This document shows positions 24,686-43,823 of a DNA stretch of 64,000 nt, piece after piece (positions within the stretch are counted from its first letter, which is position 1; the number at the start of each line of letters is the position of its first letter). The stretch is taken from positions 744,001-808,000 of the forward strand of contig NZ_CP059472.1 in NCBI RefSeq assembly GCF_014041915.1, read 5' to 3'. Below the pieces are notes generated by a model that was not told the DNA's origin, made no database searches, and worked only from the letters and a program-made list of their open reading frames with translations. Origin of the DNA: Marnyiella aurantia. GTDB lineage: Bacteria > Bacteroidota > Bacteroidia > Flavobacteriales > Weeksellaceae. Position numbers and translations under genes: made by a program.

Positions 24686-24693
24686 CTAATATA
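24686..24693 (-). promoter_or_regulatory. shared -7 box (variant) of T9SS gene
   Basis: Minus strand TATATTAG, 25 bases before the ATG at 24660, matching the position of the TATATTTA boxes of sister genes. Confidence 0.5.
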
Positions 24694-24846
24694 GAAAATC
24701 TATTTAATATTCCCAGGAATTTAAGCCTTTTTTTTATTTATTATACGGGTATTTTGCAAAATGATTAACATATCATATTTTAATAGATAAAAAATTTAGA
24801 TTAGATTACGTGATTGTTTACCGATAACAGCTGAATCTGAGATAAC

Positions 24847-24881
24847 AAAAAAAAGCTGCCCCACCCATTGGTGAGACAGCT
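24847..24881 (-). terminator. intrinsic terminator
   Basis: AGCTG...CAGCT stem enclosing CACC-CATT-GGTG, with two mismatches, and eight A giving T on the minus strand. It lies past the stop at 24901. Confidence 0.75.
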
Positions 24882-24900
24882 CATAAATACTATTTACTAA

Positions 24901-27189
24901 TTACTTCTTAATCGCTTTCACAGATTTGGAAGTTCCGTTTTTATAATCCAGCTTCAGGATATAAAGTCCGGCTTTCAGTTCGCCTAAACTGATTTGTCGT
25001 CCCGGATTTGAAACGGTTTTCACTATTCTACCGGACATGTCCATGACGGATATTGATTTGAGATCTTTTGCATCTGCAAAATGAACGAATTCCGTAAATG
25101 GATTTGGATACACTTTCACTTCTTTAACCTCAGCGGCAGGATCAAGAGTTCCCAGAGATCCGTCATAGGCTGAGATCTGGAACGGTCCGTCCTGCGGAGA
25201 GCCGCCATTCCATTTCAGTACGCTGATGAGGAGTGTAGACCCTGCTGTTTGTCCTGTAAGGTTTACGGTGGAAAAAGCGTCGCCTAAATTATCGTCATTA
25301 CAACCACCGGTAACCGGAGTAAGTGTACCGCAGGTTCCGCTAAACACATTCAGGACAGTATCGGTCATCGGCGATCCGGCTACGGGTCCTGTAGCAATAG
25401 TAATGCTACCCGATGCTGGAACTACTACGGAATACCAAACGTTATTATCCGCACTGGTCTGACAGGACTGCGGAGCGCCGTCGGTGGTTGCACCAAGACT
25501 GGTCGTTGTAAGTGCATTTTGTGCAAAAGTAGCGCCGGGTGTAAGTGCAACCGGGCTCGTGCAATTATCGTTTGCAGGAGGGGAAGGCGGGAGGGTAACA
25601 CAAATATTGAACGAATTGGCATAGCCCGCACCATTGCTGTTATAAACCCGCACATAATAGGTATTGCCTACCGTCAATCCGGTTAGCTGGGCCGCACTTG
25701 CCGCCGAAGTATCACAGAGGATACTTGTAAGAGTACCGCATGCGCCGCTGAAGGCCTGCAGATACAGCGAGGTGCTATTTGTACCGGTACCGACGGAAAC
25801 CACATTAGACAGGTTCACCAAATGGGTAACATTTGTGGCAACAAATGAATACCATACGTCATCATCGGCTGTACCGGTGCACGGCGCTGGCGCAATACCT
25901 GAACTTGTTGCGCCCAGAGTGGTCCCTGCAGTAAGAGTTGCACAGGTCCCTGAAGCACTGGGCGTAAGCACGACTGCAGCGTCGCAGTTATCATTAGGTG
26001 GCACTACGGGAGTGATAACGCAAATGTTAAAGGTGTTTGCATAGGCTGTAGATCCGGTGTTACTGTTATATACCCGGACATAGTAAATGGTTCCTATTGT
26101 TAATCCGACTAGGGCAGTTGGAGTGGCTGCAGACGTATCACATATTAGACTGGTTAAACCTGCACAACTACCACTGAATACCTGCGAATACAAAGATGTA
26201 GATGAGGTTGTACCAACAGATGCAACATTTGAAATCACTATGTTATGTGTTGCAGAGGTAGCCATGAAAGAATACCATACATCGTCATCCGCAGTTCCGG
26301 TACAGGTGCCCAGGGGAACTCCGGAGCTGGTCGCAGATAGTGTTGTGCCTGCTACCGCCGATGCGCAACTGGAACCTGCATTGGCCGTGAGCATGATAGC
26401 TCCAGTACAGTTGTCATTCGCTGGTGCGGCTGGCGCAGCTGGCGTGGTAAAGGACCAAATTGTTGTATTGCAACCCAGGGCATCGTTACCCCCTTCAGTT
26501 GGAACTACATACCAGTAATAAGTTGTACTGTATAAGAGCGGAACGGTAGGCGTATACGAAGTGGCAGGAAAGTTAACTGTGGCTGCCACTGTTGTAGGCG
26601 GATTAACAGTACCGAGGTAAACTTTATACCCTGTTGGTACCGGACCTCCTGCAGCCGGTGTCCATGACAATGTAGGGATGTTGGTCGTAAGCACGGTACC
26701 ATTGGCAGGAGCCGCTAAAGTGGCACAATTCGGCGCCGGTGGCGCAACTGAAATATCCAGCGTAAACTCTCCACATGCCGGAGCTGGCCAGGTATCCACA
26801 TAAACATAATACGTACCGTTGCTGGGAATGTGAATGAACCCCTCACCCACTCCTGTACTCGAGGCAACAGACCCCAGGCAGTTTGCAGCTGTAGGAGGAC
26901 ACGCAGAGTGCACAGATACTATTTTCCACGTAGCCGCCCCACCCATAGTAAATTTTAAAGTGACAGGTGCTGTGGTCACAGCAATAGAATAAACATAGTC
27001 TTCGCCGCCGCCATAACTCGCATTACAAAAGGACCCCGCAGGGTAATCATTTACCTTGCCACAGGTCGTCTGAGTGCCGCTGGAAAACGGCAGGGATGCA
27101 ATCGGAACCGCTGTAACGCAGTCGTTCTGGGCTTTGAGCCCGACGCCTGAAAGCAGCATAATCGTCAGAATGATAAAGAGTTTTTTCAT
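24901..27189 (-). CDS. T9SS-secreted protein with Cys-rich NDNC repeats
   Basis: 762 residues. Signal peptide ends LKAQ (21). An N-terminal pre-peptidase-like beta domain (GEDYVYSIAV, GTYYVYVDTWP) is followed by an Fn3-like domain (about 155-250), then three tandem repeats of about 135 residues that each start NDNC and carry [13 protein letters not shown], SGxC and [12 protein letters not shown]. The third repeat is diverged (SADNNVWYSV). A type A sorting domain closes the protein (VYPNPFTEFVHFADAKDL). Paired cysteines in each repeat suggest disulfides, as expected for an extracellular protein. The same repeat type occurs in the 31400-34678 gene. No enzyme motif is visible. Confidence 0.86.
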   Translation of the reverse strand: MKKLFIILTIMLLSGVGLKAQNDCVTAVPIASLPFSSGTQTTCGKVNDYPAGSFCNASYGGGEDYVYSIAVTTAPVTLKFTMGGAATWKIVSVHSACPPTAANCLGSVASSTGVGEGFIHIPSNGTYYVYVDTWPAPACGEFTLDISVAPPAPNCATLAAPANGTVLTTNIPTLSWTPAAGGPVPTGYKVYLGTVNPPTTVAATVNFPATSYTPTVPLLYSTTYYWYVVPTEGGNDALGCNTTIWSFTTPAAPAAPANDNCTGAIMLTANAGSSCASAVAGTTLSATSSGVPLGTCTGTADDDVWYSFMATSATHNIVISNVASVGTTSSTSLYSQVFSGSCAGLTSLICDTSAATPTALVGLTIGTIYYVRVYNSNTGSTAYANTFNICVITPVVPPNDNCDAAVVLTPSASGTCATLTAGTTLGATSSGIAPAPCTGTADDDVWYSFVATNVTHLVNLSNVVSVGTGTNSTSLYLQAFSGACGTLTSILCDTSAASAAQLTGLTVGNTYYVRVYNSNGAGYANSFNICVTLPPSPPANDNCTSPVALTPGATFAQNALTTTSLGATTDGAPQSCQTSADNNVWYSVVVPASGSITIATGPVAGSPMTDTVLNVFSGTCGTLTPVTGGCNDDNLGDAFSTVNLTGQTAGSTLLISVLKWNGGSPQDGPFQISAYDGSLGTLDPAAEVKEVKVYPNPFTEFVHFADAKDLKSISVMDMSGRIVKTVSNPGRQISLGELKAGLYILKLDYKNGTSKSVKAIKK

Positions 27190-27214
27190 AATCTTGTTTT
27201 TTATAATGTGAAAC

Positions 27215-27222
27215 TAAATATA
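27215..27222 (-). promoter_or_regulatory. shared -7 box of T9SS gene
   Basis: Minus strand TATATTTA, 25 bases before the ATG at 27189 and preceded by GATG as in the 31151 copy. No TTG at 17-23 bases upstream. Confidence 0.55.
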
Positions 27223-27399
27223 CATCTTTTTTATAAAAATGAATAATTTTCGTTAAAAATCAAAAAACCTTTATCAGAAACGTGTAACGGATATTTAATA
27301 CGCAATAACATAAACAAATGTTTACATTTAAATGAATGCTGTACATCTATACTGCGGCATACAGCATTTGTTATCTCTATTGACGAAAACTTATTGCAT

Positions 27400-27424
27400 A
27401 AAAAAAGCAGCTGTTTCCAGCTGC
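27400..27424 (-). terminator. intrinsic terminator
   Basis: GCAGCTG-TTTC-CAGCTGC stem with a preceding A run (T on the minus strand), 25 bases past the stop at 27450. Confidence 0.85.
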
Positions 27425-27449
27425 CTTAAGTTTAATAAAATATTAAGAA

Positions 27450-30400
27450 TTATTTCTTAATTGCCTTCACTGTTTGTACAGTTCCGTCTTTATAATCCAG
27501 TTTTAGGATATACAGACCTGCCTTAAGTTCACTTAGGTTGATTTGCCTTCCCGGATTGGCAATTGTTTTTACCATTCTTCCGGACATATCTACTACAGAA
27601 ACTGATTTCAGGTCCTTCACATCGGAGATGTTCACCACATCTGTAAATGGATTCGGATACACCTTCACCTCCTTAGTGTTGGAAACTACCTCACCTGTAG
27701 CAAGATTTGGATTCTGCAATACAGAAATCTCGTCTAACAGAAGATCATCATAGAAGTATCCGTTTCCAGCTACATCTTTGTCCACAGTAAAGCGAAATCT
27801 TACTGTAGCACCTACATAGGAAGACGCCAGAGGAATTCCTACAGTACGCCATACGCTGGAATTTGTATCGTCCGCAAATATCTGCGTCCAGGTGGTTCCA
27901 TCGGTTGTTACGTGCACAAGCAGTTTATTATTGTCATAGCTTGGCAATGAACCTGCTGGTGCATCCAAATGATTTTTAAACCATTCAAACTGCAGGTAAG
28001 GATTTGTAAGTCCCGTGAGGTCTATTTGAGGGCTGATCAGCTGCACTGTATGCTCACCGGTGTAAGGTGAACTTGCGTCTACCCAGGCGAAAGTGCCTCC
28101 AGGCTTAGTGCTGTTTGCAATAACAGCACCATAATCTGCAGTTCCGGAGAATTTCCAGAAAGCATTTGCGTTCGTAGAGGTACTGGTTGGATTCACATTA
28201 GACCAGCAGTTAGGCAAAGATCCTGAACTGAACGATTGTGTATATGGTGCAGCTACAGGTGCGCATAATGTGTTAAAAGACGGTCCGGCTACCCAATCAC
28301 TCAAGTCGGTAGCAGAGCAGTTGGCACGAACCCACACAAAATAAGTAGAAGATGGAGTAAGCGCACTTAACGCCACTGTATTTGTGGTGCTTCCGGCAGA
28401 GTTGGTTGCATCTAATACTGTGGACGAGGTTGGAGCCGTATTTACTGTACTGTAGTAAACTGTATAGCCATTCGCCGGAGCTGGTGAGGATACAGTTACA
28501 TTAACATTCGCACCTGTTGAGGTAATTGATGCGGCATCCACGGTAATACCGGTTGGAGGCAAACAGGATGGTGGAGGAGTGACATTTACGGTATAATCCT
28601 CAAAAGCACCATATGTACCTGTATAGCACGACGAGCTAGGACCAGCATCATTATCGGTACCCCCAATTCTCATTCTGTAAGTACCAGGCGCAGTTGTAGC
28701 AGGTATGGTAATCAGTGCTGATAAAGTGGTCGGATCAGCTGATGTTGACAAACCTGTGTACAGCAATTCCGTGGCGTCATTAAAAATCAAATCATTATTA
28801 AGATCGATCCAGATTTTTGTGCCGTAGGAATAACCTGTAGCGTAGGTAATATTTACCTGCGAAGCAACACCTGCGGGAATATCTCCTACCATGGCGCTGT
28901 AATTTCCATAATTTCCGGTTTCTGCGGCAGTGGTGTTATTCACCACATTTGTTCCGGAACCGAAGGTTACATTGATAATTCCCTGTCCGTCCACAGAACT
29001 TGGAGCTGGTGAACAGTAACCTGTGTAAATACTAACAGGACCAACCCAGGTACTTTGTGACGTCCCACAGTTGGATGCTACCCAAATATAATAAGTAGTG
29101 TTTGGTACTAAACCCGGAATTGTTGCGGACACTGTAGTTGAGGATACAGAATTTGTAGCATCAAGAACAGTGGACGCAGTTGGAGCCGTATTAACAGTAC
29201 TGTAATACACATTATAGCCGGCGGAAGGAACACTAGCAGGTGCTGTCCATGATACAGTGGCTGTTACTGCTGTAAATGAATCCACTGTTAAAGCTGTAGG
29301 GATAAAGCAGCTAGGTGCTTCCATAAAGCTAATATCATCAATGGCCAAGTCTCCATAGAAATCAGTTCCTCTAACTGCTCTGAAGCGGACTTTTACATCA
29401 CCAGTGATGTTGAGAACACCTAAATCCACAATCGCTAACTTCCAGGGATCTGTTAAAGAAGTGTTTTGCTGGCCTGTTAAAACAAGCATATCATTGGTCC
29501 ATGCAGCACCATCAAACACATCCACATGCAAAGCTCCCATGGTGGCTCCATACATATGGTAGTAAAACTGTAATGAAGGATTTGTTAATGCGGTTACATT
29601 TACATTTGGAGTGTACAGTTCCGCAATACTTCCGGTTGAACCCTCTGATGCTTCAGTATAAAAATACCTAACGCCGCTATATGCAGATGCAGGCCCTGTA
29701 TCTGAAGAAGGCGTAGAACCCGACCCATCAACATTCCACCTGTAAAGTGTTGTAGTTCCGCCGGGGTTTGTGAACCAACAGTCTGCAATAACTGCACTTG
29801 TAGTATTTGCAGCAGATTCAACAGTATAAGTCCATGGTGCAGTTACCGCAGGACATGCTGTAACAAAACTCCCTTTGGCTGACCAGACGCTCTGATCAGG
29901 GGCAGTACAGTTAGTCCGAAGCCATACGTAATACTGGGTTGAAGGGTTAAGACCTGCAATAGTACCCGTTGAAGCAGGAGCTGTAACAGTAACTGAATTA
30001 GTAGCATCTAAAACCGTTGCAGCTGTAGGCGCTGTATTGGTTGTGCTATAATAAATAGTGTAGCTGGATGCAGCCGGTAAAGCAGGCCAGCTTAAAGATA
30101 CTGAGCTGGATGACGGTATTCCAAATGTTACGATGCCCGGCGCTATACAGATTGGAGGAGTCCAGTTGAAAGTGAGACCAGAAGCAGGAAAATTGGTATT
30201 GTTTCTTGCAACGGTAGCAGAATTACTGGTCCCGGCATTTGTCGCATTCCAAGGGTTGGACACAGTGCCTGCCCTGTTATTATAATCAGAGTTAGCAAAC
30301 CCTCGTAAACCAATCTGATTTGTTTTGGAACCGGTACTAAAAATATAGGACGGTCCATAAACCGCTGACACAATATTACTGGTTTCGGCAAGCCTCAGTT

Positions 30401-31124
30401 GAAAATTCAGATGATTGCTATCGGAAGCGGCACTCCCATAATCATTATATCCCTTCCATTCAATCACAAACACCCGGTTCGGGGCAGTACCTTCGGTAGC
30501 AGTATAAACAATGCCACTGCCATATCTAACCACAGCTGCACTTGAACTACTGGTTGCAGGTGCAGACATTGTGATGGTTCCTGCAGTTGCATCAAATGCG
30601 GTGACGGTTGCACCTGTTGGGATTCCGTTAACAGCATTTAATGCCTTGCCAACTTCAATCCCCTGCATTGAAACCACATTCGTTATCACATTTGATCCGT
30701 TCGTTGTAACACCGGAAGTAATGAAAGCTCCCCACAAATCCCGGTTCATTACACTTATAGCTCCATCATAAGCTGTTGTAGCAGATATAAGTGAAGAACC
30801 GGTGTTCGTTACAGCTCCAAATGTAGCTCCGCCGTTAGAGTTCACATAAACTGAATTGTAGTTGTTACCGTTAAAATTGAAATCAAAAGGTATAGTAACC
30901 GTCCAACCCGACGTGTCGTTGGTTGTTGATGTAGTAGCTTCACTACCCGCTACCACCGTACCACTGGCTGCAATACTTGAAAAAGCACCATTACTTTGCG
31001 AAAAGGTGTATGCGCTGACCTGCGCTTTCACATTACCGAGCGACGCGGTAAGAACCATCAGCAACATACTGCTGAAGTACCGCCATCGGGAAGTGCGCGG
31101 TACTTTTTTGTAAAAGTTTTTCAT
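27450..31124 (-). CDS. large T9SS-secreted modular protein (1224 aa)
   Basis: The largest gene of the array. Order: long signal peptide ending VKAQ (35); the shared N-terminal module (VNSNGGATFG, GTAPNRVFVIEW, IGLRGFANSDYNNR) carrying a unique insertion of about 60 residues; Fn3; a MAM-like domain (about 430-605, LYTPNVNVTALTNP, LAIDDISFMEAPSC); Fn3; a GEVED domain (IWIDLNNDLIFNDATELLY, GAFEDYTVNV); Fn3; an anchor-J domain nearly matching that of the 19224-21962 protein (GYFYDDLLLDEISV); and a type A sorting domain ([12 protein letters not shown]). It is thus a mosaic of the module types found in both subgroups of neighbours. It is expected at the cell surface; the ligand is unknown. Confidence 0.86.
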   Translation of the reverse strand: MKNFYKKVPRTSRWRYFSSMLLMVLTASLGNVKAQVSAYTFSQSNGAFSSIAASGTVVAGSEATTSTTNDTSGWTVTIPFDFNFNGNNYNSVYVNSNGGATFGAVTNTGSSLISATTAYDGAISVMNRDLWGAFITSGVTTNGSNVITNVVSMQGIEVGKALNAVNGIPTGATVTAFDATAGTITMSAPATSSSSAAVVRYGSGIVYTATEGTAPNRVFVIEWKGYNDYGSAASDSNHLNFQLRLAETSNIVSAVYGPSYIFSTGSKTNQIGLRGFANSDYNNRAGTVSNPWNATNAGTSNSATVARNNTNFPASGLTFNWTPPICIAPGIVTFGIPSSSSVSLSWPALPAASSYTIYYSTTNTAPTAATVLDATNSVTVTAPASTGTIAGLNPSTQYYVWLRTNCTAPDQSVWSAKGSFVTACPAVTAPWTYTVESAANTTSAVIADCWFTNPGGTTTLYRWNVDGSGSTPSSDTGPASAYSGVRYFYTEASEGSTGSIAELYTPNVNVTALTNPSLQFYYHMYGATMGALHVDVFDGAAWTNDMLVLTGQQNTSLTDPWKLAIVDLGVLNITGDVKVRFRAVRGTDFYGDLAIDDISFMEAPSCFIPTALTVDSFTAVTATVSWTAPASVPSAGYNVYYSTVNTAPTASTVLDATNSVSSTTVSATIPGLVPNTTYYIWVASNCGTSQSTWVGPVSIYTGYCSPAPSSVDGQGIINVTFGSGTNVVNNTTAAETGNYGNYSAMVGDIPAGVASQVNITYATGYSYGTKIWIDLNNDLIFNDATELLYTGLSTSADPTTLSALITIPATTAPGTYRMRIGGTDNDAGPSSSCYTGTYGAFEDYTVNVTPPPSCLPPTGITVDAASITSTGANVNVTVSSPAPANGYTVYYSTVNTAPTSSTVLDATNSAGSTTNTVALSALTPSSTYFVWVRANCSATDLSDWVAGPSFNTLCAPVAAPYTQSFSSGSLPNCWSNVNPTSTSTNANAFWKFSGTADYGAVIANSTKPGGTFAWVDASSPYTGEHTVQLISPQIDLTGLTNPYLQFEWFKNHLDAPAGSLPSYDNNKLLVHVTTDGTTWTQIFADDTNSSVWRTVGIPLASSYVGATVRFRFTVDKDVAGNGYFYDDLLLDEISVLQNPNLATGEVVSNTKEVKVYPNPFTDVVNISDVKDLKSVSVVDMSGRMVKTIANPGRQINLSELKAGLYILKLDYKDGTVQTVKAIKK

Positions 31125-31150
31125 AAATGTTAAAAGTTTAAATTCGAGGG

Positions 31151-31182
31151 TAAATATACATCATTTATTGAAATACATACAA
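31151..31182 (-). promoter_or_regulatory. promoter of the 1224-residue T9SS gene
   Basis: Minus strand TTG (31180-31182), 21 bases, TATATTTA (31151-31158), then 26 bases to the ATG at 31124. Both elements fit the Bacteroidetes consensus. Confidence 0.65.
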
Positions 31183-31344
31183 TACCGCTAATTTTAACTT
31201 ATAAAATAAAAAATTTTAACTAAATATATAATTGTAACTAAGTTAAATGAGATAATAATTTACGAATTTATCAATTATGTATTTATAATTTCAATTGTGA
31301 GTATTTTAATGATTAATCAATTGTAAGCAAAACCTACAAAACAC

Positions 31345-31377
31345 AAAAAAAAGCAGCCGTTTTCAAAACGACTGCTT
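31345..31377 (-). terminator. intrinsic terminator
   Basis: AAGCAG(C)CGTTTT paired with AAAACG(A)CTGCTT around a one-base loop centre, A run upstream. Past the stop at 31400. Confidence 0.8.
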
Positions 31378-31399
31378 CCAATATTTAACTGATTTCTAA

Positions 31400-34300
31400 C
31401 TACTTCTTAATTACCTTCACTGTTTTCACAGTTCCGCCTTTATAATCCAGTTTCAGGATATAGAGGCCGGATTTCAGTTCACCCAAGTTGATCTGTCTAC
31501 CCGGATTGGCAATTGTTTTTACCATTCTTCCGGACATATCGACTACAGTTACCGCTTTTAAATCCTTGACATCGGAGATATGGACCATATCGGTGAACGG
31601 ATTAGGGTAAACAGTTACTTTTTCAGCACCTGCTATGACCTGCGAAGTACTTAAAGTAGAACAGGTGGCAGTAATGCTGTAGTTTCCTATCCTTGTTGCC
31701 GCAAAGCCTGTAAGAAGAATATAATAAGTTGTTCCCGCAGTTGCAGTAAAGGTAAGTGTTGGCGCGTTATAAAGATTCGGTGCAGGACAGCCAGAGTCGG
31801 CATACCCAGTGCCCGATACATTAGAAACGCATACCTGTGTAGTACAGTCACCACTGTATACCCGCAAATAGGCATCGAACTCAGTCCCGCAGGCACTCAG
31901 GGTAATCGGGCCGTTTGACGTGGCGGTGAGGGTATGCCACACTCCTTTGAAGTTAGCTCCCGTGGCACTTCCGCAGGCGGAAGCAGGTAATGTATCATCT
32001 GTCGCCAGGGCATTGTTACCGGTCACAGTTCCGTTACATGCTATTGCAGTAGCGCCCGCACAGGTATCATTGGTTGGTACAGATGGTGTTGTAATACAAA
32101 TCTGGAAATTGGAATACACTCCCAAAACTGCTGAAGTTGAAAATACCCGTACATAATACTCGGTTCCTACGGAAAGCCCGGTCATGAGTACATTGGAATT
32201 TCCAAAGGCTCCGCCGAAGCAACTGAGAGCAGTTAAACTGCCGCACGTTCCTGAGTACACCTGAGTGGTAGTCGCATTATCGCTGTAATTAACCTGGACC
32301 ATGTGAGTTGCAGAAGTTGCTGTAAACTTATACCAAACATCATCATCAATTCCTGTCGCATTGCAGGTAGGTGCAGTTCCGGTACTGGCCGTTGCACTCA
32401 CAGTCGTTCCGCTTGTTGGTGTACATGCAGCCGTAGTACTTGGAGTCAATGTTGTGGCTGTAGCACACTCATCATTGGCCGGTACAGGCGCAGATGTGGT
32501 TACACAAATATCGAATGAATTGGCATTAGTCAATGAACCGGTACCAGAATTATAAACCCGCACATAATATGTACTACCAACCGTTAAGCCGGTTAGTACT
32601 GCCGGTGAAGCAGCTGTGGTGTCGCACAGGATATTTGTCAGCGAACCACAGGTTCCTCCAAGTACCTGAAGATTGAGTGAGGTGCTGGAAGTGGTACCCA
32701 CCGAAACCACATTGGAAAGGGTTACAGTATGTGCTGTACTTGTGGCAACAAATGAATACCAAACATCATCATCAGCGGTACCGGTACAGGGTGCCAGAGC
32801 ATCCGCAGAGGCAGTGGCACCTAATGTAGTTCCTGATACAGCCGCAGCACAGGTACCGGTGGAACTTGCTGTAAGCATGACCGCGCTTGCACAATCGTTG
32901 TTAGCAGGAACCACTGGGGTAATGATACAGATATCAAAGGAATTCGCATAAGTCACACCAATATTGGAGTTATACAGTCTGACATAATAGGTTTGACCTA
33001 CAGTCAGGGCAGTCAGTGAAACCGGGGTTGCTGCAGTAGTGTCACATGCTACGCTGGTTAGGGTACCGCAGGAACCTGTCATCACCTGTACATAGAAAGA
33101 CGTTGAATTAACCGCTCCAACAGACAGAATATTGGAAACTACTACCATATGGGAAGTGCTGGTGGCCACAAAGGAATACCAGACATCATCGTCAGCAGTA
33201 CCGGTACACGGGGTAACCGCTACACCTGAATCCGTGGCACCAAGGGTGGTTCCGGAAACCGGAGTGGCACACGTTGATATAGCACTTGGAATAAGGACGA
33301 CTGCAGTAATACAGTTATCATTTGCCGGTGGTGGTGGTGGTGTAGTTACACAAATACTGAAACTTGCACTGCCACCGGGCCCTGCTACAGTGTATACCCG
33401 TACATAATAGGTTTGCCCAACGGTCAGTCCGCCGGCCAGATTAGCGTTGGCATCTGAACAGAGAATACTTGTCATTGTTCCGCATGCGCCGCTAAGTACC
33501 TGATAGTACATGTCTGTTGTAGCAGTTGCGCCCGTGGACACCACATTGGATAATGAAATGATATGCGAAGTGGAGGTTGCCACAAATGAATACCACACGT
33601 CATCGTCTGCATTACCAGTGCAGGGTGCTGCTGCCATTGATTCGGTGGCACCTAAGGTATTGCCGGCAACCGGTGCTGCGCAGGCGTCGTTTGCATTTAC
33701 GGTTAATGCCACAGCTGTTGCACATTCATTATTTGAAGGCGTGGCCGGCGTTGAAAATGAGATTTCAGTACAGCCAGTAGCGTCTCCAATTGCGTTGGTT
33801 GGGACAATTCGGGCATAATAGGTAGTAGAAGGCAGCAATCCGGTAAAGGTGTAGCTGGTTACATTTCCCAGGTTTGTACCGTTCACAATATCAGTCCCAC
33901 CAGGGGTCGTTCCAATATAAAGTTTATATCCCGCAGCAAATGCAGCCGCGTTCCACGTCAGGGAACTTCCGTTAACTACATTTACAGCACCGGCGCTTGG
34001 AGCAGTGATGGTTGTACACGCTGGTGGCGCAGTAGCCAGCACATCGAAGGCCATTTTTGGACGTCTGTAATTTGCATTGGTCAGAGCATCAGATAAAGCA
34101 CCCGTGGTATTTAGGTACCGTGTTGTGTTACTGTTACCGGTATTAATACATGGTCCGGTGTACTCATACTCCCAGGTTATTGCGGCAGTAGGACCGGTAG
34201 TTTGAACATATTCCACAAATACCGCAAGGTTACTGCCCGCTGTATAAGTAAAATTGGTGGTGTGCGGAAACTGCTTATATCCTGCAGTGCTTCCCACAAT

Positions 34301-34678: not shown

Positions 34679-34702
34679 CTGTTTTTTGTTTGTATTAAGA
34701 CG

Positions 34703-34732
34703 TAAATATACATTAAAATCTAAAAAACGCAA
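34703..34732 (-). promoter_or_regulatory. promoter of the NDNC-repeat T9SS gene
   Basis: Minus strand TTG (34730-34732), 19 bases, TATATTTA (34703-34710), then 24 bases to the ATG at 34678. It supports that start over the upstream one at 34732, which would lie inside the promoter. Confidence 0.65.
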
Positions 34733-34870
34733 TTTTATTTCACATTATTTGAATTAACTATACCTACGCACCTTATCCGATAGAAGAAGTCTATTAAAAT
34801 AACCATATGTTTGAACTTTTGTCATTCGTTACAGAGGTGATGGGGTGTGAAGGCAATGGAGCTGTTGAAT

Positions 34871-34896
34871 AAAAAAAGACAGCCCGAAGGCTGTCT
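34871..34896 (-). terminator. intrinsic terminator
   Basis: AGACAGCC-CGAA-GGCTGTCT perfect 8-bp stem with a tetraloop and seven A (T on the minus strand). Past the stop at 34922. Confidence 0.88.
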
Positions 34897-34921
34897 GATC
34901 AATAAGCAAAAATAGAAGAAA

Positions 34922-37009
34922 TTACTTCTTGATTACTTTAATATTTTGCACTGATCCCTCCTTAAAATCAAGCTTAAGAATATAAATTCCGGATTTCAAC
35001 TCACCTAAATTGAGCTGTCTTCCCGGATTGGCCACGGACTTCACCATTCTGCCGGACATATCGAGTACAGAAACTGATTTCAGGTCTTTCGCATCTGAAA
35101 TGTTTACTACATCAGTAAACGGATTCGGATACACTTTGATACTTCCAGCGCTATCGGCTTCAGAAGTTCCCATGGTGCAGGTACTGTCGTAAGTGGCAGT
35201 AACCATAGTCCGTGCAGATTCGCATATGGCGGATACAGACCAGTTGTACAGATAATAATAATAAAGGTTGGACGCACCGGAAGTATATGCCGAATTAATA
35301 CTTGCAAAACCAGGCAAGATATAAGGATAAGCGAAACCGGTGCTGCTTTCACGGATCAAACCTGTCATTCCTGAAGCTGCCGTCACGACTAAACGGTGGC
35401 CAATGCCTGAAGGTACTGCAAAATTAAGTGGTATAGTATTCAGTGCTCCGGTTGGAGATACCGTAACATTTGCTGTGTAAGACTGTAGTTCCACCCCTGC
35501 CGAGTTCTTTAAGGCAATGGTAACTGTACCGGAGGTGGAGGTAGTAGAGACAGGGTATACGTCTACCGATACCAGTGTAAAATTGCTGAACGCATCAAAC
35601 ATTAAACCCACGTCACTAAACCCGTTGTTGGTGCTGGTGGATACAGGCACATCTTTACCAACGGTTCCCGTTGAACCTACTCCCGCCGATACCCAATAAC
35701 TGGTGGTTGCAGTTAGGACAGGTGTGGTATAGGTAGGTCCGGTACTAAGCGGCGTAGTTGTGGAAGCATCCGCGTACCAGTATACGGTGGCTGCGGCATC
35801 TGCGGCTGCAGTTAAAGTTGCCGTTCCACCCAGACACACCGGAGTGGGAGTAACACTGGTACCGGTAATTGCTGGTGGCGAACAAAGTGTACTTAAGGTA
35901 ATTGCCACAGGAGACCAGATACTTTTATCTGTGGAAGAGCATACCGTTCTGATCCAAACATAATAAGTGGTTAATGGGGTAAGTCCTGAAATGGTCGCAG
36001 TGGTGCCGGAAACAGATACAGAGTTGGTTGCATCCAGAACAGTCGAGGCAGTGGGTGCTACATTAGTGGTGCTGTAATACAATTCGTATCCGGATGCGGT
36101 ACTTGCGGAAGAAGTCCACGTCATCACCCCACTGCTGGTAGTGGGAGATCCAGGAGTAACCTGAAGACTTGAAGGCAGATAGCAGGACGGTGGAGTCCAG
36201 GTGTAAGTAAGGCCCGAAGCGGGCATTCCTGGTGTGGCATTTACTGTGTGGAAGGCCTGGTCATCACCATTTGCAGTACCTGCTGCCGAGCTGTTATATG
36301 ATGTGGAGGTATCATTGAATCTATTGTTAAAATCTGTATTTGTTGCTCCGCGAAGCCCGACCTGATTAACTGCGGAACTATAACTCGTGGAACCCACAAG
36401 GTAGGATCCTGAACTATATACCACAGCAACCTTGTTAGAGGTTTCCTGCAATCTGATTTGAAAGGAAAAACTATATACGGTTGTGATGGTAGCCACACTG
36501 GTTGGTCGGAAATTAGTCCACTGGATCACCACTTCTCTATTTGGCGCTGTTCCTATGGTCTCCCAACGGATATCACCAGTCTGTCCGGCAACATTAAAAA
36601 AGGAACTGATGTCCCGGCCAAATGCCGACACCGCACCCTCATAAGCAGTGCTGCCCGAAATAGGTGTGGAATAGCTGGCGATAGGAGTCGTGGCGCCGAA
36701 GGTTATAAAGCCGTTTGTTGAAACGTTCAGCGCAGAATAACTCTGCCCGTTAAACTGGAAGGCAAAGGGCAGTGTAACAGGATAGATAGCACTGTTTAGG
36801 TTGGTCGTTGAAGTATTTCCGGTTGCGGTACCCAGAACCGTCCCGCCCGTTACCGGCGTAAAAGTACCGTTGCTCTGCTGAAACGCGTAAGAACTCACCT
36901 GTGCGTGTAGCACATTTCCCCCAATCGTGAACAAAACTGCCGATAAAATACCGGCAAAAAAAGAGCGCCTTTTTTGTGGCATACCCTTCATCATGTAAAA
37001 TTTTTCCAT
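34922..37009 (-). CDS. T9SS-secreted modular protein (Fn3, split Ig-like)
   Basis: 695 residues. Signal peptide with a long basic n-region ends LHAQ (37). It has the shared N-terminal module (VSTNGFITFG, GTAPNREVVIQWTNFRP, VGLRGATNTDFNNRF), one Fn3 domain, and an Ig-like domain in which YWVSA (438-442) and CESARTMVTATYD (from 596) are separated by a beta-sandwich of about 150 residues. The sorting domain ([18 protein letters not shown]) is canonical. It is the short version of the two larger genes that follow it in transcription-upstream direction, lacking their MAM-like domain and second Fn3. Likely a cell-surface protein; ligand unknown. Confidence 0.86.
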   Translation of the reverse strand: MEKFYMMKGMPQKRRSFFAGILSAVLFTIGGNVLHAQVSSYAFQQSNGTFTPVTGGTVLGTATGNTSTTNLNSAIYPVTLPFAFQFNGQSYSALNVSTNGFITFGATTPIASYSTPISGSTAYEGAVSAFGRDISSFFNVAGQTGDIRWETIGTAPNREVVIQWTNFRPTSVATITTVYSFSFQIRLQETSNKVAVVYSSGSYLVGSTSYSSAVNQVGLRGATNTDFNNRFNDTSTSYNSSAAGTANGDDQAFHTVNATPGMPASGLTYTWTPPSCYLPSSLQVTPGSPTTSSGVMTWTSSASTASGYELYYSTTNVAPTASTVLDATNSVSVSGTTATISGLTPLTTYYVWIRTVCSSTDKSIWSPVAITLSTLCSPPAITGTSVTPTPVCLGGTATLTAAADAAATVYWYADASTTTPLSTGPTYTTPVLTATTSYWVSAGVGSTGTVGKDVPVSTSTNNGFSDVGLMFDAFSNFTLVSVDVYPVSTTSTSGTVTIALKNSAGVELQSYTANVTVSPTGALNTIPLNFAVPSGIGHRLVVTAASGMTGLIRESSTGFAYPYILPGFASINSAYTSGASNLYYYYLYNWSVSAICESARTMVTATYDSTCTMGTSEADSAGSIKVYPNPFTDVVNISDAKDLKSVSVLDMSGRMVKSVANPGRQLNLGELKSGIYILKLDFKEGSVQNIKVIKK

Positions 37010-37035
37010 CTATATTTTTATTATTAATTAGCGAA

Positions 37036-37043
37036 TAAAGATA
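37036..37043 (-). promoter_or_regulatory. shared -7 box (variant) of T9SS gene
   Basis: Minus strand TATCTTTA, 26 bases before the ATG at 37009. No clear -33 element. Confidence 0.5.
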
Positions 37044-37240
37044 AACTTTTTTACCATAAACCTGGTCTTTTTTATTAAAAGGTCATGGCAACACTCCATT
37101 CATGAATTTATCCGCAAAATTTTAGACACAATCTCTTCTTTACGTATACGAGATTAGGACTCAGTATGGAATCTCTTTTTTTTCAAGGGAGTCCGCAAGA
37201 CGATAAAAATTCAGATCATATAAATCCATTTACATATTGC

Positions 37241-37273
37241 AAAAAAGAGGCTGCCTCGTTCTGAGACAGCCTC
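37241..37273 (-). terminator. intrinsic terminator
   Basis: GAGGCTG(C)CTC-GTTCT-GAG(A)CAGCCTC stem with one mismatch and six A upstream. Past the stop at 37303. Confidence 0.85.
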
Positions 37274-37302
37274 CTGCACTGTTTATAGCAGTATAAAAAT
37301 TA

Positions 37303-40146
37303 CTACTTTTTCACTGCTTTTATGCTCTTCGAAGAGCCATCCTTATATTTAAGGTTGATAAGGTACAATCCAGCGTTTAATTCAGATAAATTAATTTGGG
37401 CTGCAGGTCTGTCTAAAGTCTTTACCAGCCTTCCGGACATATCCAGAACCGTAATGGACTGTACATCGCGGATCTCTGAAATATTTATAACCTCAGTAAA
37501 CGGATTTGGATATACTTTCACATCTCCAGCGCTGTGTGCTTCCGAAGTTCCCATGGTACAGTCCACCGTGGCAGTAACCATTGTCCTTGGTGATTCGCAG
37601 TAGCCTGTAAAGTTCAGATTATAGAAATAAAAATAGTACGCAGGATAATTTACAAATGTCGTTCCGGTAATCGTTAACTCCGGAGTACTGTATGGAAAAG
37701 TGGCACCCACTGAATTTCGATACAGATTAGCTGCTCCTGTTCTCTTCATTGAATAATTACCGGGAGCTAATGCTATATTTAAGGGGATTGTTTGTGGTGT
37801 GGATGCTCCTGCTCCTGAAGTTGTAAAAGGATAAGAACCCACAACTACATCATTTGCATCCAGAATTTCAATAACTCCGGCCTGACCTGCGGTGCCGGAA
37901 AACACATCAACAGAATTCAACGTAATATTAGATGAAACAGTAAACAGTAGGTTCCAATTTGTATTGGTATTGGAGCTGGTACCCAATAGTGCCGGAGATA
38001 CAGGACCAACATATGTGGGACTTCCTGATGTAGCAGCTGATACCCAATAGTTTGTAGTGGCGGTTAGTGCCGGTGTAGTAAAAGTACCCCCTGTACCTAC
38101 CTGGTTTCCTCCTGTTGCGGCATCATACCAGTTAAGCGTAGTTCCGGCAGAGCCCGTGGCACTTAAAGTTGCGGTACCGCTGCAAATTACAGTTCCTGTA
38201 GTGCCGGTGATTAATGGGGTCTGACATAACGTCGCAAGCGTAACCGATACCGGAGTCCAGACACTCTTATCCGTAGCAGAGCACACAGATCTTACCCATA
38301 TATAATAAATTGTAGCCGGAGCTAATCCAGACAGGGTTGCTGTAGTACCAGCCACAGAGAGGGAATTTGAACTGTTCAGTACAGTAGTATCTACCGGAGC
38401 TGTGGGATCAGTACTGAAATAAAGTTCGTAACTCACAGCTACTGTGGTGGGTGCTGTCCAAGTAAGAACACCTCCGTCAGTTGTGGCGGATCCGGCAGTA
38501 ACCGCCAGATTTGTAGGTTCAAAACAGGTCGGTATTTTCTCTACGAAAATATCATCCAGATATACCGTACGGCTGCTTCCGCCCAAACCATGTCTGAATG
38601 CAACATACTGGTTAGAAGCTGCAGGCAGAGCAACTATATGTTCAACATAGGTTTGGGTTAGCGAAACAGTAGATATAACATTAAAGGTTCCGGGATTTGA
38701 CGGATCGGATAGAGTTCCTACATCCATAGTATAGTTATTGCCACCTGCACGAACCGAAAATCTAACCTGTCTGGTCCCGTCGGAAAGGTTGGAAGTCTGA
38801 GGAGAAACCAGCATTACATCACCCGTAGTATCTGCTCCGTTAGCAAGCACATAACTATGAGGAGCTGAAAGTGCATTTGAAGTACTAATATAACCCGAAC
38901 CTGCAGAGCCTGCAGTTTCCAGATAAGACCAACACGCAGGCGCATTTGGATTTGTGGTGGAACCTACGGGAGTAGAATCAAAACTTTCATAGTAAGGTGC
39001 CGACACTGCGTTACAGGTTGTTGCAAAACTTAGTACAGATGACCAGTTACTGCTGTCTGTTGCGCTGCATTTACCTCGAACCCAAACATAATATTGTGTC
39101 CCGGAAGTAAGTCCGGAGATGGTTCCTGAAAGTGAGCCAGCGGCAACGCTTACAGAGTTGGAACCGTCTAAGACAGTTGAAGCATCAGGGGCAACGCCTG
39201 TTGTGTTAAAGTAAATCTCATACCCCATGGCAGGAACCTGCGCGGATGCAGTCCAGTCAATTTGCGCTGCATTAAGGCCGACAGCACCTAAGGCAATGGT
39301 AGTAGGTGCGTAGCAAGTAGGAGGAGTCCAGGTATAAGTTAATCCGTCTGAGGGCATGCCTGGAACCGCAACAGTAGTGTTGAATGCCTGGTCATCACTG
39401 TTGCTGGTCCCTGGTACTGAACCGGTATAAGGGGTAGCAGCTGCATTGAACCGGTTATTAAAATCGGCATTAGTCATACCGCGAAGCCCTACCTGGTTTA
39501 TTGCCGACGAATAAGATGTAGAACCCACCAGATAATCACCCTGCGAATACACTACAGCAACTACATTGCTAGTCTCCTTAAGCCTGATTTGAAATGAAAA
39601 ACTGTAAACAGATGTGATTCCGGTTAAACTTGTTGGCCGGAAATTGGTCCATTGTATTACTACCTCACGGTTAGGAGCAGTACCTAAGGTTTCCCAGCGG
39701 ATATCTCCAGTACGGCCTGCGACATCATAAAACGAACTGATATCCCGCCCAAAAGCCGAAACTGCACCATCATAAGCTGTCGATCCGGATATTGGCGTGG
39801 AGTAACTTGTTGTTGGGGCCGTAGCACCAAAAGTGATAAAGCCATTTGTTGAAACATTCAGAGAGGTGTAACTCTGATTGTTAAACTGAAAGCTGAAAGG
39901 CAGCGTAACCGGATAGATCGCGCTGTTCAGATTCGTAGTTGAAGTGTTTCCCGTGGCAGTTGCTAAAACTGTTCCCCCGGTAAGCGGAAAAAACACACCG
40001 CTACTTTGCGCAAAGCTGTAAGCACTGACCTGCGCATTCATATTGAGCGCGGTAGCTGATGTGAGCAGTAGTACACCGACCCCGGTAAGAAGGGTGCTTA
40101 CCCTTTTCCGAAGTCCATGATTCTTTTCCTGGTAAAATTTTATCAT
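37303..40146 (-). CDS. T9SS-secreted modular protein (Fn3, MAM-like, split Ig-like)
   Basis: 947 residues. Signal peptide ends MNAQ (39). Order: shared N-terminal module 40 to about 280; Fn3; a MAM-like beta-sandwich (about 375-545; YYESFDSTPVGS, AFRHGLGGSSRTVYLDDIFV); Fn3; an Ig-like domain split between Y700 (NYWVSA) and C850 (CESPRTMVTATVD) by about 145 residues; and a type A sorting domain (VYPNPFTEVINI). The sorting domain is somewhat diverged (RPAAQINLSELNAGLYLINL). Close paralogue of the genes on both sides, so it probably arose by tandem duplication. Surface exposure is expected from the T9SS signal. Confidence 0.86.
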   Translation of the reverse strand: MIKFYQEKNHGLRKRVSTLLTGVGVLLLTSATALNMNAQVSAYSFAQSSGVFFPLTGGTVLATATGNTSTTNLNSAIYPVTLPFSFQFNNQSYTSLNVSTNGFITFGATAPTTSYSTPISGSTAYDGAVSAFGRDISSFYDVAGRTGDIRWETLGTAPNREVVIQWTNFRPTSLTGITSVYSFSFQIRLKETSNVVAVVYSQGDYLVGSTSYSSAINQVGLRGMTNADFNNRFNAAATPYTGSVPGTSNSDDQAFNTTVAVPGMPSDGLTYTWTPPTCYAPTTIALGAVGLNAAQIDWTASAQVPAMGYEIYFNTTGVAPDASTVLDGSNSVSVAAGSLSGTISGLTSGTQYYVWVRGKCSATDSSNWSSVLSFATTCNAVSAPYYESFDSTPVGSTTNPNAPACWSYLETAGSAGSGYISTSNALSAPHSYVLANGADTTGDVMLVSPQTSNLSDGTRQVRFSVRAGGNNYTMDVGTLSDPSNPGTFNVISTVSLTQTYVEHIVALPAASNQYVAFRHGLGGSSRTVYLDDIFVEKIPTCFEPTNLAVTAGSATTDGGVLTWTAPTTVAVSYELYFSTDPTAPVDTTVLNSSNSLSVAGTTATLSGLAPATIYYIWVRSVCSATDKSVWTPVSVTLATLCQTPLITGTTGTVICSGTATLSATGSAGTTLNWYDAATGGNQVGTGGTFTTPALTATTNYWVSAATSGSPTYVGPVSPALLGTSSNTNTNWNLLFTVSSNITLNSVDVFSGTAGQAGVIEILDANDVVVGSYPFTTSGAGASTPQTIPLNIALAPGNYSMKRTGAANLYRNSVGATFPYSTPELTITGTTFVNYPAYYFYFYNLNFTGYCESPRTMVTATVDCTMGTSEAHSAGDVKVYPNPFTEVINISEIRDVQSITVLDMSGRLVKTLDRPAAQINLSELNAGLYLINLKYKDGSSKSIKAVKK

Positions 40147-40170
40147 TTTATTAAGTTTAAATATTCAAGT

Positions 40171-40178
40171 TAAATATA
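40171..40178 (-). promoter_or_regulatory. shared -7 box of T9SS gene
   Basis: Minus strand TATATTTA, 24 bases before the ATG at 40146. A TTG lies 26 bases upstream, somewhat too far for a standard -33. Confidence 0.55.
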
Positions 40179-40842
40179 AGAAATATTTTACATATGGATA
40201 AATTCAAGTATCATAATCTCAAACAACCAATGCTTTTAAGATAAATTAGGAAAAAGAATAATCTGCTGTAATTAACTGGGAGCAGAGGTCTATGCGCATA
40301 TTTTTACAGATTAAAAATGCACTGTTAAAAAATGGCTTTCCCGGCAAAATGCCCGTATGACTACAATTTATCCCGCGACCAAAGATGCTGAACAGGCTAC
40401 AGCAATGAATGCTTATTAATTTTTGGCACTTTCTAAAATACTGAAGAAAGCCTCTTTAGAACATAACCCAGAAAGATTCAGGTGCATTATCAAATTCTGT
40501 CATTTATCATGTTGTGAAATCCCACTTGTTTTCCGCATGAATACGGTCGTACCTAGTAGCCCTCTCTCCCATCTAATCCGCTTTCTCCTTCGTATTAGTC
40601 CCGATAACTGCGATGGCCCGACCATTGAATATATGTTTTTAGGTGGAGAAAGATTAGCAGCTAAAAACCGTCTTCGTGGGTGCTGAACTGATAAAAAACA
40701 ACCCTATCTGGGCACTAAACCCTATCTTCAGCCCTCCGCGCTATGTAGTTCACTGTGATCTGCTTTATAATTTCAGCCAGCTGTGAAATCTGGGGGATCA
40801 TTTTACCTAACTAAAAAGAGCAGCAGTAGCTTAGAATTCCAC
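40179..40842. other. long intergenic gap inside the T9SS array, no gene recognised
   Basis: The 744 bases between two T9SS genes are about three times the other gaps of the array. There are only short frames, including a TTG-started one at 40423-40686 without recognisable content. I see no hairpin besides the terminator at its left end. It could hold the remains of a lost gene or a non-coding element. Confidence 0.4.
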
Positions 40843-40869
40843 AAAAAAGCGGCCTCATTGGAGGCCGCT
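40843..40869 (-). terminator. intrinsic terminator
   Basis: AGCGGCCTC-ATTG-GAGGCCGCT perfect 9-bp stem with six A upstream (T on the minus strand). Past the stop at 40891. Confidence 0.88.
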
Positions 40870-40890
40870 CAAGATCCAATATAAATAAGA

Positions 40891-43767
40891 TTACTTTTTA
40901 ATTGCTTTCACTGACTTGGAAGTCCCATCTTTGTAATCCAGTTTAAGGATATACATTCCGGCTTTCAATTCAGAAAGATTAATCTGTCGTCCAGGATTGG
41001 CAATAGTCTTCACCATTCTGCCTGACATATCAAGCACTGTGACAGTTTTCAAATCCTTCACGTCGGAGATGTTTACAATATCCATAAATGGATTAGGATA
41101 GATCACCGGTTCGTTAGTGTTTCCTGCCTCAGAGGTTCCCATTGTACAGTTAGGGTCCACCGTAACAGTTACTACAGATTTAGCACTCTCGCAACCAGTT
41201 GAATAATTCCAGTTATAGATATAGTACCAGTAGTCAGGACCGGAGGTAAAGTTATTTCCCGTTACATTGATCGCGGGTGAAGTGAAGGGATAGGTGGCAC
41301 CGGAAGTATTACGCTGAAGATTAATACCTACTCCCTGCCCGATCCTGTAACCCGTGCCGACCGGCAGAAGGTAGTTCAGAGCTACAGTTTGTGGTGTCAC
41401 TCCATCGTTCACCGAAACTGTGTACGGAACTGAAACCAAAGTTGCACCACTGCTGTCCCTGATCTCAATTGAAGATGCAGTACCGATGGCTACAGTAGTG
41501 GCGGGAAAAACATCTACAGTGTTTAAAGTAACTGGCGTAACAACATCAAAAATCTGGTAATAGGTACCGATGGCATAATTAGAGGCACTGATGGTTCCAA
41601 GTGATGATGGACTTGCCGGACCCACATTTCCCGTACTTCCTGATCCGGAAGACACATAGAAATCTGTGGTCACATTCAGTGGTCCCGTAGTAAAGGTAGT
41701 TCCCGTGGCTAACGGAGTTGTATCCGCAGCATTTGCATACCAGTTAATCTGTGCCCCAGCATCTGCCGTTGCGGTTATGGTAGCCGTTCCGCCTACACAT
41801 ACGGGTACCGGTGTTACTGTTGTGGCAGATATACCCGGTGGCTGACAAAGAGTAACCATTGTTACCGCGGTGGGTGTCCAGACACTCTTGTCCGAAGCCG
41901 AGCACACAGACCTTACCCATACATAATATACTGTTGATGGATTAAGTCCGGAAAGGGTTGCGGTTGTGCCAACCACAGAGAGTGAGTTGGTACCGTCCAG
42001 TACGGTACCGGCTACAGGAGCTGTAGGATCTGTACTGTAATAGATTTCATATCCGGTAGCCGGCGTGGAGGGAGCCGCCCAGCTAATGGTACCACCGGTA
42101 CCGGTTACGCTTCCTGCAGTTACAGAAAGTGCAGTAGGTTCAAAGCAGGTGGGAGCATCTTCAACGGTGATATCATCCATATAGATGCCACGGTAAGTAC
42201 CGCCTAGCCCATGTCTGAATACCAAATACTGATGTGTGCCGGCAGGAATCACTACCGTATATTCCTGATGCGAATTCGTTAAGGGAATTGTAGTTAAAAG
42301 TGAAAGACTGCCCAGATTGGATGGGCTGTCCAGGGTTCCTACTTCAAGGATAGAGGCGCTGCCACTTCCCCTGGCTGAAAATTTCACCCACTTTGTTCCG
42401 TCAGCCAGGTTTAATGTCTGAGGTGAAATCAACAGAATATTACCGGTAGTGTCAGAGCTGTTGTACATATAAAAGCTGTGCGGAGCTGAAACTGAATTAC
42501 TGGTGGATACATAACCGTAAGCAGCAGACCCTGATTCTTCGGAATAGGTCCAGCACACCGGAGCAGTATTATTGGTACTGCTACCGACGGGTGCAGTGTC
42601 GAAATTCTGGGTATAAGGCGCATTCAAGGGTACACACTCGGTACTCAATGTAATTCCTGATGACCAGTTTCCGAAATCGGTGGAGGAACATTTACCACGT
42701 ATCCAGATATAATACTGAGTGCCGGAGCTAAGCCCGGAAAGGGTAGCTGAAAGGGCCGAACTTGATACAGATAAAGAATTTGTTCCATCCAATACCGTTG
42801 ATGAATCCGGTGCAACGCCGGTAGTATTATAATAAATATCGTAACCGGCGGCAGGAAGCTGAGCAGGCGCCGTCCAGTTTACCACTGCTGTACCCACGGT
42901 CACTGGTCCGGGTGTAAATGAAACCGGCGAATAACAGGTAGGCGGTGTCCAGGTATAGGTAAGGCCGTCCGTGGGCATTCCGGGGGGAACATTTACCGTG
43001 CTGAAAGACTGATCCAAACCGTTGGAGGTTCCTGCTTCAGAATTAATGAATAAAGTTCCGGTTGGGTTATACCGGTTATTAAAATCGGAGTTTGTGGCTC
43101 CCCGCAGACCGATCTGGTTGACGGATGATGAATATGAGGTGGAACCTACTAAATATGATCCGCTGGTATATACCGTGGAAATAATGTTCGTAGTCTCCTG
43201 CAGTCTTATCTGGAAAGAAAATGAATACACACTCGTCGTTGAAGTGGTATTGGTTGGTCTGAAATCCGTCCATTGGATAACCACTTCCCTGTTTGGAGCA
43301 GTACCGACTGTTTCCCAACTGATGTTTCCGGTGCGTCCTGCAATATTATAGAAAGATGTTAAGTCGCGTGCAAACGCTGCAATGGCGCCCTCATAAGCGA
43401 TGGAGGATGAGATAGGTGAAGATAAAGTTGCACTTGGCGCGGTAGCCCCAAAGGTGACAAAGCCGTTCGTAGAGACATTTAACTCCGTGTAGCTTTGCTG
43501 GTTAAAATTAAATGCAAAAGGTAGAGTTACAGAATAAACCTGACTGTTAAGATTAGTAGTTGATGTATTTCCTGTAGCTGTTCCTAATACTGTTCCTCCT
43601 GTAATCGGAGTAAACGTTCCCATACTCTGAGAGAATAAATAGGCACTTACCTGTGCCTGTAATTTCGTCCCAATAGCTGCCGAAAGCAGTAACACACTCA
43701 AACCGGCCAGCATACTGCGTATTCTGCCCCTCAAAAGTCTCGTTTTTTCTCTGTAATTTTTACTCAT
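40891..43767 (-). CDS. T9SS-secreted modular protein (Fn3, MAM-like, split Ig-like)
   Basis: 958 residues, first gene of the array in transcription direction. Its layout equals that of the 37303-40146 protein: signal peptide ending LQAQ (39), shared N-terminal module (VSTNGFVTFG, GTAPNREVVIQWTDFRP), Fn3, MAM-like domain (YTQNFDTAPVGSS, FRHGLGGTYRGIYMDDITV), Fn3, an Ig-like domain split between FYVSS (about 703-707) and CESAKSVVTVTVD (from 859), and a type A sorting domain (IYPNPFMDIVNISDVKDL) that is of the homogenised type. Two adjacent genes of equal plan point to tandem duplication. Surface location expected, ligand unknown. Confidence 0.86.
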   Translation of the reverse strand: MSKNYREKTRLLRGRIRSMLAGLSVLLLSAAIGTKLQAQVSAYLFSQSMGTFTPITGGTVLGTATGNTSTTNLNSQVYSVTLPFAFNFNQQSYTELNVSTNGFVTFGATAPSATLSSPISSSIAYEGAIAAFARDLTSFYNIAGRTGNISWETVGTAPNREVVIQWTDFRPTNTTSTTSVYSFSFQIRLQETTNIISTVYTSGSYLVGSTSYSSSVNQIGLRGATNSDFNNRYNPTGTLFINSEAGTSNGLDQSFSTVNVPPGMPTDGLTYTWTPPTCYSPVSFTPGPVTVGTAVVNWTAPAQLPAAGYDIYYNTTGVAPDSSTVLDGTNSLSVSSSALSATLSGLSSGTQYYIWIRGKCSSTDFGNWSSGITLSTECVPLNAPYTQNFDTAPVGSSTNNTAPVCWTYSEESGSAAYGYVSTSNSVSAPHSFYMYNSSDTTGNILLISPQTLNLADGTKWVKFSARGSGSASILEVGTLDSPSNLGSLSLLTTIPLTNSHQEYTVVIPAGTHQYLVFRHGLGGTYRGIYMDDITVEDAPTCFEPTALSVTAGSVTGTGGTISWAAPSTPATGYEIYYSTDPTAPVAGTVLDGTNSLSVVGTTATLSGLNPSTVYYVWVRSVCSASDKSVWTPTAVTMVTLCQPPGISATTVTPVPVCVGGTATITATADAGAQINWYANAADTTPLATGTTFTTGPLNVTTDFYVSSGSGSTGNVGPASPSSLGTISASNYAIGTYYQIFDVVTPVTLNTVDVFPATTVAIGTASSIEIRDSSGATLVSVPYTVSVNDGVTPQTVALNYLLPVGTGYRIGQGVGINLQRNTSGATYPFTSPAINVTGNNFTSGPDYWYYIYNWNYSTGCESAKSVVTVTVDPNCTMGTSEAGNTNEPVIYPNPFMDIVNISDVKDLKTVTVLDMSGRMVKTIANPGRQINLSELKAGMYILKLDYKDGTSKSVKAIKK

Positions 43768-43791
43768 AAGCTTTAATTAATTGGTTGGCTA

Positions 43792-43823
43792 TAAATATAG
43801 GATTTTCAAAATAAAGCGCCAAA
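43792..43823 (-). promoter_or_regulatory. promoter of first T9SS array gene
   Basis: Minus strand TTTG (43820-43823), 20 bases, TATATTTA (43792-43799), then 24 bases to the ATG at 43767. Best complete example of the shared array promoter. Confidence 0.68.

Follow-up and report, generated by a model that had tools for sequence, protein, structure and literature searches.

A conserved off-consensus -7 box before nine tandem genes for type IX secretion cargo

The window examined here, 64,000 nucleotides in length, spans positions 744001-808000 of a 2.61-Mb genome in one contig. Its minus strand holds a tandem array of nine genes (window positions 17005-43767) whose products all carry a Por_Secre_tail sorting domain together with fn3. 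Each gene is preceded by a short -7-like box, and these boxes are, to judge by their letters, variants of TAnnTTTG, the housekeeping -7 element of Bacteroidetes. We consider it likely that the array is a set of primary-sigma (sigma-A) promoters of duplicated monocistronic surface-protein genes, sharing a conserved off-consensus -7 box. This assignment is made because the TAHHTT core is common to the boxes and to an element in use in this genome, because the interquartile range of the distances of that element (16-29 bases before the start codon) includes the 24-26 bases of the array, and because the genome has a single primary sigma.

The array, its boxes and its transcription units

By profile search, the C-terminal Por_Secre_tail domain scores over its curated cut-off in 9/9 array proteins, which identifies them as type A cargo of the type IX secretion system (T9SS); GEVED, Ig_7, MAM or GBD_T9SS_assoc domains are variously present as well. 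The array genes are T9SS cargo and include no T9SS machinery. Genome-wide, the type A sorting domain has 48 matches, 47 of which were paired with an open reading frame (ORF). The N-termini divide the nine genes into four families without N-terminal likeness between them; family A comprises five genes and family B two, the members of each being paralogues. Family A has its best protein relatives in Chryseobacterium and Kaistella records, so the host most likely belongs to the Chryseobacterium group.

The earlier note had described seven boxes lying 24-26 bases before the ATG, and all seven are present on the minus strand at these distances. TATATTTA precedes gene 40891-43767 (box at 43792-43799, 24 bases to the ATG), gene 37303-40146 (40171-40178, 24 bases), gene 31400-34678 (34703-34710, 24 bases), gene 27450-31124 (31151-31158, 26 bases) and gene 24901-27189 (27215-27222, 25 bases), while TATCTTTA precedes gene 34922-37009 (37036-37043, 26 bases) and TATATTAG gene 22243-24660 (24686-24693, 25 bases). 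Slightly relaxing the box adds two weaker matches on the same strand, TAAATTAG before gene 19224-21962 (21986-21993, 23 bases) and TAATTTAG before gene 17005-19110 (19121-19128), the latter an outlier at 10 bases. A TAHHTT core stands roughly 10-40 bases before the start codon in 9/9 array genes. Genes were called by the longest-ATG-ORF rule, which can misplace starts (as it visibly did in one congener gene).

According to two published studies, the primary sigma factor of Bacteroidetes uses TAnnTTTG as its -7 element, and transcription starts 4-5 bases downstream (PMC6847099, PMC9723704), and the motifs SM1-3 of Flavobacterium psychrophilum are variations around it that are read by sigma-A (PMC9723704). 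In the same studies, leaders have a median of 24 bases in F. psychrophilum (PMC9723704) and a mean of 33 bases in F. johnsoniae (PMC6847099). The 24-26-base spacing, combined with the published 4-5-base gap, implies leaders of 19-22 bases for the seven genes. The constant leader length that the earlier note had called unusual is thus close to the published median and ordinary, and an unusual leader was rejected on the strength of both published figures. Compared with the published sigma-ABfr promoter (-33 TTTG and -7 TAnnTTTG; PMC6847099, PMC9723704 for SM1-3), the array shares the TAHHTT core, its place before the ATG, the implied leader length and, in 3/9 genes, a TTG 19-21 bases upstream; it differs in that 9/9 boxes end in TTTA or TTAG rather than TTTG and in that the spacing is more even. 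SM5 of F. psychrophilum (TAnnTTGY; PMC9723704) has TAnnTT at the same place but needs GY after the TT, and TAHHTTGY at 14-30 bases before the called start occurs in 0/23 cluster promoters of four species. A search for E. coli-type sigma-70 promoters gave no signal (39 found, 36.4 expected in shuffles).

The earlier note had also assigned each gene its own terminator, and a hairpin followed by a T-run is indeed found after 9/9 genes by folding, a count made without a shuffled control. These terminator-like hairpins, all on the minus strand, lie after gene 40891 (40847-40870), 34922 (34877-34896), 31400 (31350-31378), 27450 (27404-27427) and 24901 (24853-24882), where folding and a consensus scan agree, and after gene 37303 (37246-37274, missed by the consensus scan), 22243 (22197-22224), 19224 (19189-19211) and 17005 (16957-16981), where folding detects them. 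The consensus scan covered 24600-44200, and with it six of the nine places, five of which it listed. With a promoter box and a hairpin apiece, each gene appears to be transcribed as a unit by itself. We propose that each unit would consist of a promoter read by the single primary sigma-ABfr-type factor and its own terminator. Transcription is predicted to start 4-5 bases after the box, so the seven genes would have leaders of about 19-22 bases.

Concerning the surroundings, the gap upstream of gene 37303 (40147-40890) measures 744 bases, those of the other eight genes 113-293. The array is adjoined by an apparent resistance-nodulation-division (RND) efflux operon at 43980-50179, recognized by eye from the translations.

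Spacing and box ending against the genomic background

The background sample covered 43% of the genome, being made up of the window, the T9SS regions and 52 stretches of 20 kb, and yielded 893 ORFs; 519 of these have at least 80 free upstream bases (41 T9SS and 478 non-T9SS genes). The last two bases of the box were allowed to be TG, TA or AG for the genome sample, the random draws and the 23-26-base counts in relatives, also CG or GG in the congener, family A and signal-peptide comparisons, and any base followed by A or G in the -33 counts. The canonical TAHHTTTG occurs 10-40 bases before 116/478 sampled non-T9SS genes, with a high frequency at 16-26 bases, while scrambled boxes have no position peak; this peak shows that the -7 element of the phylum is in use in this genome. 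Ordinary TTTG boxes within 60 bases (162 genes; where a gene has several, the one nearest 22 bases was used) have a median distance of 20 with an interquartile range (IQR) of 16-29, and 15% of them fall at 23-26.

It should also be noted that TAHHTTTG has a second sharp peak exactly 4 bases before the ATG (16/478 non-T9SS genes, against 0 for three scrambled boxes), which suggests that a group of mRNAs here is leaderless.

Against this background, the array is distinctive in how evenly its boxes are placed. TAHHTT followed by TG, TA or AG lies at 23-26 bases in 8/9 array genes versus 31/478 sampled non-T9SS genes, or 17/119 of the AT-rich genes among them, and when nine AT-rich genes were drawn at random 20000 times, 8 boxes never fell within 4 bases. 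When four such genes were drawn, to stand for the four N-terminal families, 4/4 was reached in 20 of 20000 draws, with family A counted by its four agreeing members, without gene 17005; counted so, the even spacing holds after correction for paralogy. The distances themselves do not differ from those of signal-peptide non-T9SS genes (median 24, IQR 16-32; p 0.76), a comparison that uses a crude signal-peptide call which flags only 56% of the nine array genes. Within this genome, the peculiarity of the array is the evenness of its spacing and not the length.

The earlier note had asked for a genome search for its box at 24-26 bases before ATG and held that the pattern would lose its meaning if it were as common before unrelated genes. 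The search, carried out on the sampled genes, finds TATATTTA at exactly 24-26 bases in 5/9 array genes, 0/32 other T9SS genes and 0/478 other genes. As a raw pattern, TATATTTA occurs at 20 places genome-wide, 5 of them in the array; the reversed control pattern occurs at 8.

The box endings set the array apart as well: six are TTTA, three TTAG and 0/9 TTTG, while the boxed total of 165 among the 478 sampled non-T9SS genes is made up of 116 TTTG, 44 TTTA-only and 5 TTAG-only boxes. The TTTA- or TTAG-only class thus amounts to 49/165 boxed ordinary genes, some of them by chance. Of the 32 other T9SS cargo genes tested in this genome, 9 have a TTTG box at 10-40 bases, 6 only TTTA and 3 only TTAG, with scattered distances, and 3 have a box at 23-26; under the wider ending set, 9 TTTG boxes stand against 12 others. 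Their lean away from TTTG has p 0.11 versus all sampled genes and p 0.045 versus signal-peptide genes, so that a tendency towards the box type of the array is at most weak. A T9SS-wide regulon in this genome is not borne out by the mixed endings and scattered distances of these 32 genes. The off-consensus ending as a feature of exported proteins was rejected: 29/70 sampled non-T9SS signal-peptide genes are boxed, and 21 of these boxes end in TTTG.

Conservation, upstream elements and sigma factors

Three other genomes of the genus carry clusters of such genes that are syntenic with the array. Their boxes end in TTTA or TTAG in 13/14 genes, and 14/14 boxes lie at 21-28 bases; for these figures, one start was moved to the next in-frame ATG, and in three genes with two candidate boxes the one at 20 bases or more was taken. 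In the four species together, 22/23 cluster promoters are without TTTG and 22/23 boxes lie at 21-28.

Among these promoters, the six of GEVED type (two of this array, before genes 19224 and 22243, and four before the best matches of these genes in the three congeners) have TAAATTAG, TAATTTAG or TATATTAG, each followed by C; three of the other 17 cluster promoters end in TTAG, and none of these is followed by C.

Among the loci of relatives, 67/77 gave an ORF for the match. The Chryseobacterium group was taken as 48 loci by label, without L182, and 46 of its match genes have free upstream DNA. The L173 locus shares four identical promoters with the G003 cluster, and these were counted in both sets. 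In this group, 36/46 family A homologues have a box at 8-40 bases (32 non-TTTG, 4 TTTG), with a median distance of 23 and an IQR of 22-24. T9SS genes of other families in the same loci have a median distance of 23.5 (IQR 22-25.25; p 2.5e-4 versus signal-peptide genes), and their endings comprise 13 TTTG and 11 other boxes. Common descent links the relatives' genes, which means that the counts are not independent of each other. Loci outside the Chryseobacterium group present no like pattern, with a box at 23-26 in 2/26 T9SS genes versus 7/138 others.

The earlier note had reported a TTG or TTTG 19-21 bases upstream of the box in three genes. A minus-strand TTG, a candidate -33 element, is indeed seen for genes 40891 (43820-43822, 20 bases upstream of the box), 31400 (34730-34732, 19 bases) and 27450 (31180-31182, 21 bases). 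The other T9SS promoters of this genome have TTG at gaps of 18-22 in 3/19 and also in 3/19 at control gaps. In the Chryseobacterium-group loci, TTG at gaps of 18-22 is present in 14/21 other-family T9SS, 14/37 family A and 28/74 ordinary boxed promoters, and at control gaps of 11-15 in 5, 5 and 3 of them, respectively. Where the -33 element shows, T9SS and ordinary promoters therefore share its place. The geometry of the housekeeping promoter is present in the relatives and hardly visible in this genome.

Region 2 of sigma-70 has six matches in the genome, namely one primary sigma (290 aa, regions 1.2-4) and five of the size of extracytoplasmic function (ECF) sigma factors; one sigma-54 is encoded in addition. 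When 20 of the 23 cluster promoters were compared with 74 AT-matched promoters, no common site upstream of the box survived multiple testing; the best hexamer, TAAAAT, is present in 14/20 versus 19/74 (p 4e-4, 1323 tested).

Two observations come from outside the window. At C1:965654-969016, a T9SS cargo gene, an ECF-size sigma (967291) and the sigma-54 (968543-969016) lie within about 3.4 kb. At C1:2528165-2532133, two neighbouring T9SS genes have near-identical bases before their called starts, a likeness that suggests either that they were duplicated recently or that a start was miscalled.

A shared regulator, recent copying or ordinary promoters

From the constant spacing, the earlier note had suggested one regulator or sigma factor for all units. 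Part of this stands: the spacing is beyond chance, the genes look like separate units, and both box and spacing are conserved in three congeners. The suggestion itself does not follow from the data: the box appears to be a housekeeping variant, TATATTTA at 24-26 is absent from the 32 other T9SS genes tested, there is one primary sigma, and no common upstream site was found in the cluster promoters compared; a regulator dedicated to the array may still exist. The simplest reader of the array boxes is the primary sigma, and the data speak for common ancestry or common tuning, not for a new master switch.

Several results nevertheless weigh against promoters of the plain sigma-A kind. The absence of TTTG endings in the array (Fisher p 3e-5 against the sample, 2e-4 against AT-rich genes only) is not predicted by them, and the random draws show the spacing to be more even than in ordinary promoters. 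In the relatives' loci, a box lies at 23-26 in 21/74 T9SS genes versus 8/277 others, which is the strongest sign that something T9SS-related extends past the array, though these genes are related by descent. Finally, a -33 TTG at gaps of 18-22 is found in only 3/9 array promoters, and the ordinary boxed promoters of this genome have it in 20/156 versus 15/156 at control gaps; this weak control weighs equally on the primary-sigma reading and on a regulon.

In a regulon, the off-consensus box would make the promoters weak and dependent on one activator or alternative sigma, and the surface proteins would be switched as a group. We hold this to be unlikely, if worth serious attention: four families that lack N-terminal likeness have box class and spacing in common, both features are conserved in four species despite differing flanks, and both the scarcity of TTTG among family A homologues (32 non-TTTG versus 4 TTTG, median 23) and the same distance in other-family T9SS genes of the relatives' loci (median 23.5) agree with it. 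No upstream site is shared after correction, however, TAAAAT being the best at p 4e-4 of 1323. Five ECF-size sigmas are at hand, but the published ECF-like motif SM6 (PMC9723704) has a CGT box, unlike the -7 boxes of the array. The known ECF-driven T9SS regulons, SM6 of F. psychrophilum (PMC9723704) and PorXY-SigP of Porphyromonas gingivalis (PMC7712824), resemble the array in that all concern type IX secretion; as described there, they drive genes for T9SS components, whereas the array, with its sorting domain in 9/9 proteins, is cargo and differs in this respect. It is doubtful, too, that a Chryseobacterium-group promoter class, TAHHTTTA or TTAG at 21-28 bases before the ATG, marks the T9SS surface-protein array and is co-switched by one activator or sigma.

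The likeness could also reflect youth alone, the promoter and leader having been carried along by recent duplication. Families A (five genes) and B (two) are paralogous, and 3/36 pairs of upstream regions align above shuffles at z >2.5 (best z 4.0). We give this little credence: the box-aligned leaders are as alike as shuffles (0.389 vs 0.364, z 1.3), the 30 bases upstream are slightly more alike (0.350 vs 0.314, z 2.9) to a degree that 25% of ordinary promoter sets reach, and other species have the pattern too. Least credible of all is a chance effect of AT-rich intergenic sequence; the last 60 upstream bases are 80% AT in the array, but the draws described above (0/20000 for nine AT-rich genes, 20/20000 for four) and the conservation in congeners speak against it.

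Returning to the primary-sigma reading, the array may have grown through duplication of surface-protein genes, with box and spacing preserved through inheritance and through selection on promoter and leader as one unit, in the form TAHHTTTA or TAHHTTAG and not TAHHTTTG. The conserved off-consensus ending might lower basal strength or leave room for an activator. In titles and abstract openings on Flavobacterium TANNTTTG, on T9SS cargo or Chryseobacterium promoters and on TAnnTTTG mutation in Bacteroides, this promoter class was not found; nor, by title, was a start-site map of Chryseobacterium in a search on start sites, promoters and sigma factors of the genus.

Taken together, a variant of the ordinary promoter of the phylum would explain what appeared to be a special box, and a leader of about 20 bases is ordinary. 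Since no start-site map of the genus was found by title, an array whose promoters all depart from the consensus in a similar manner would offer a handle on how many surface proteins are tuned.

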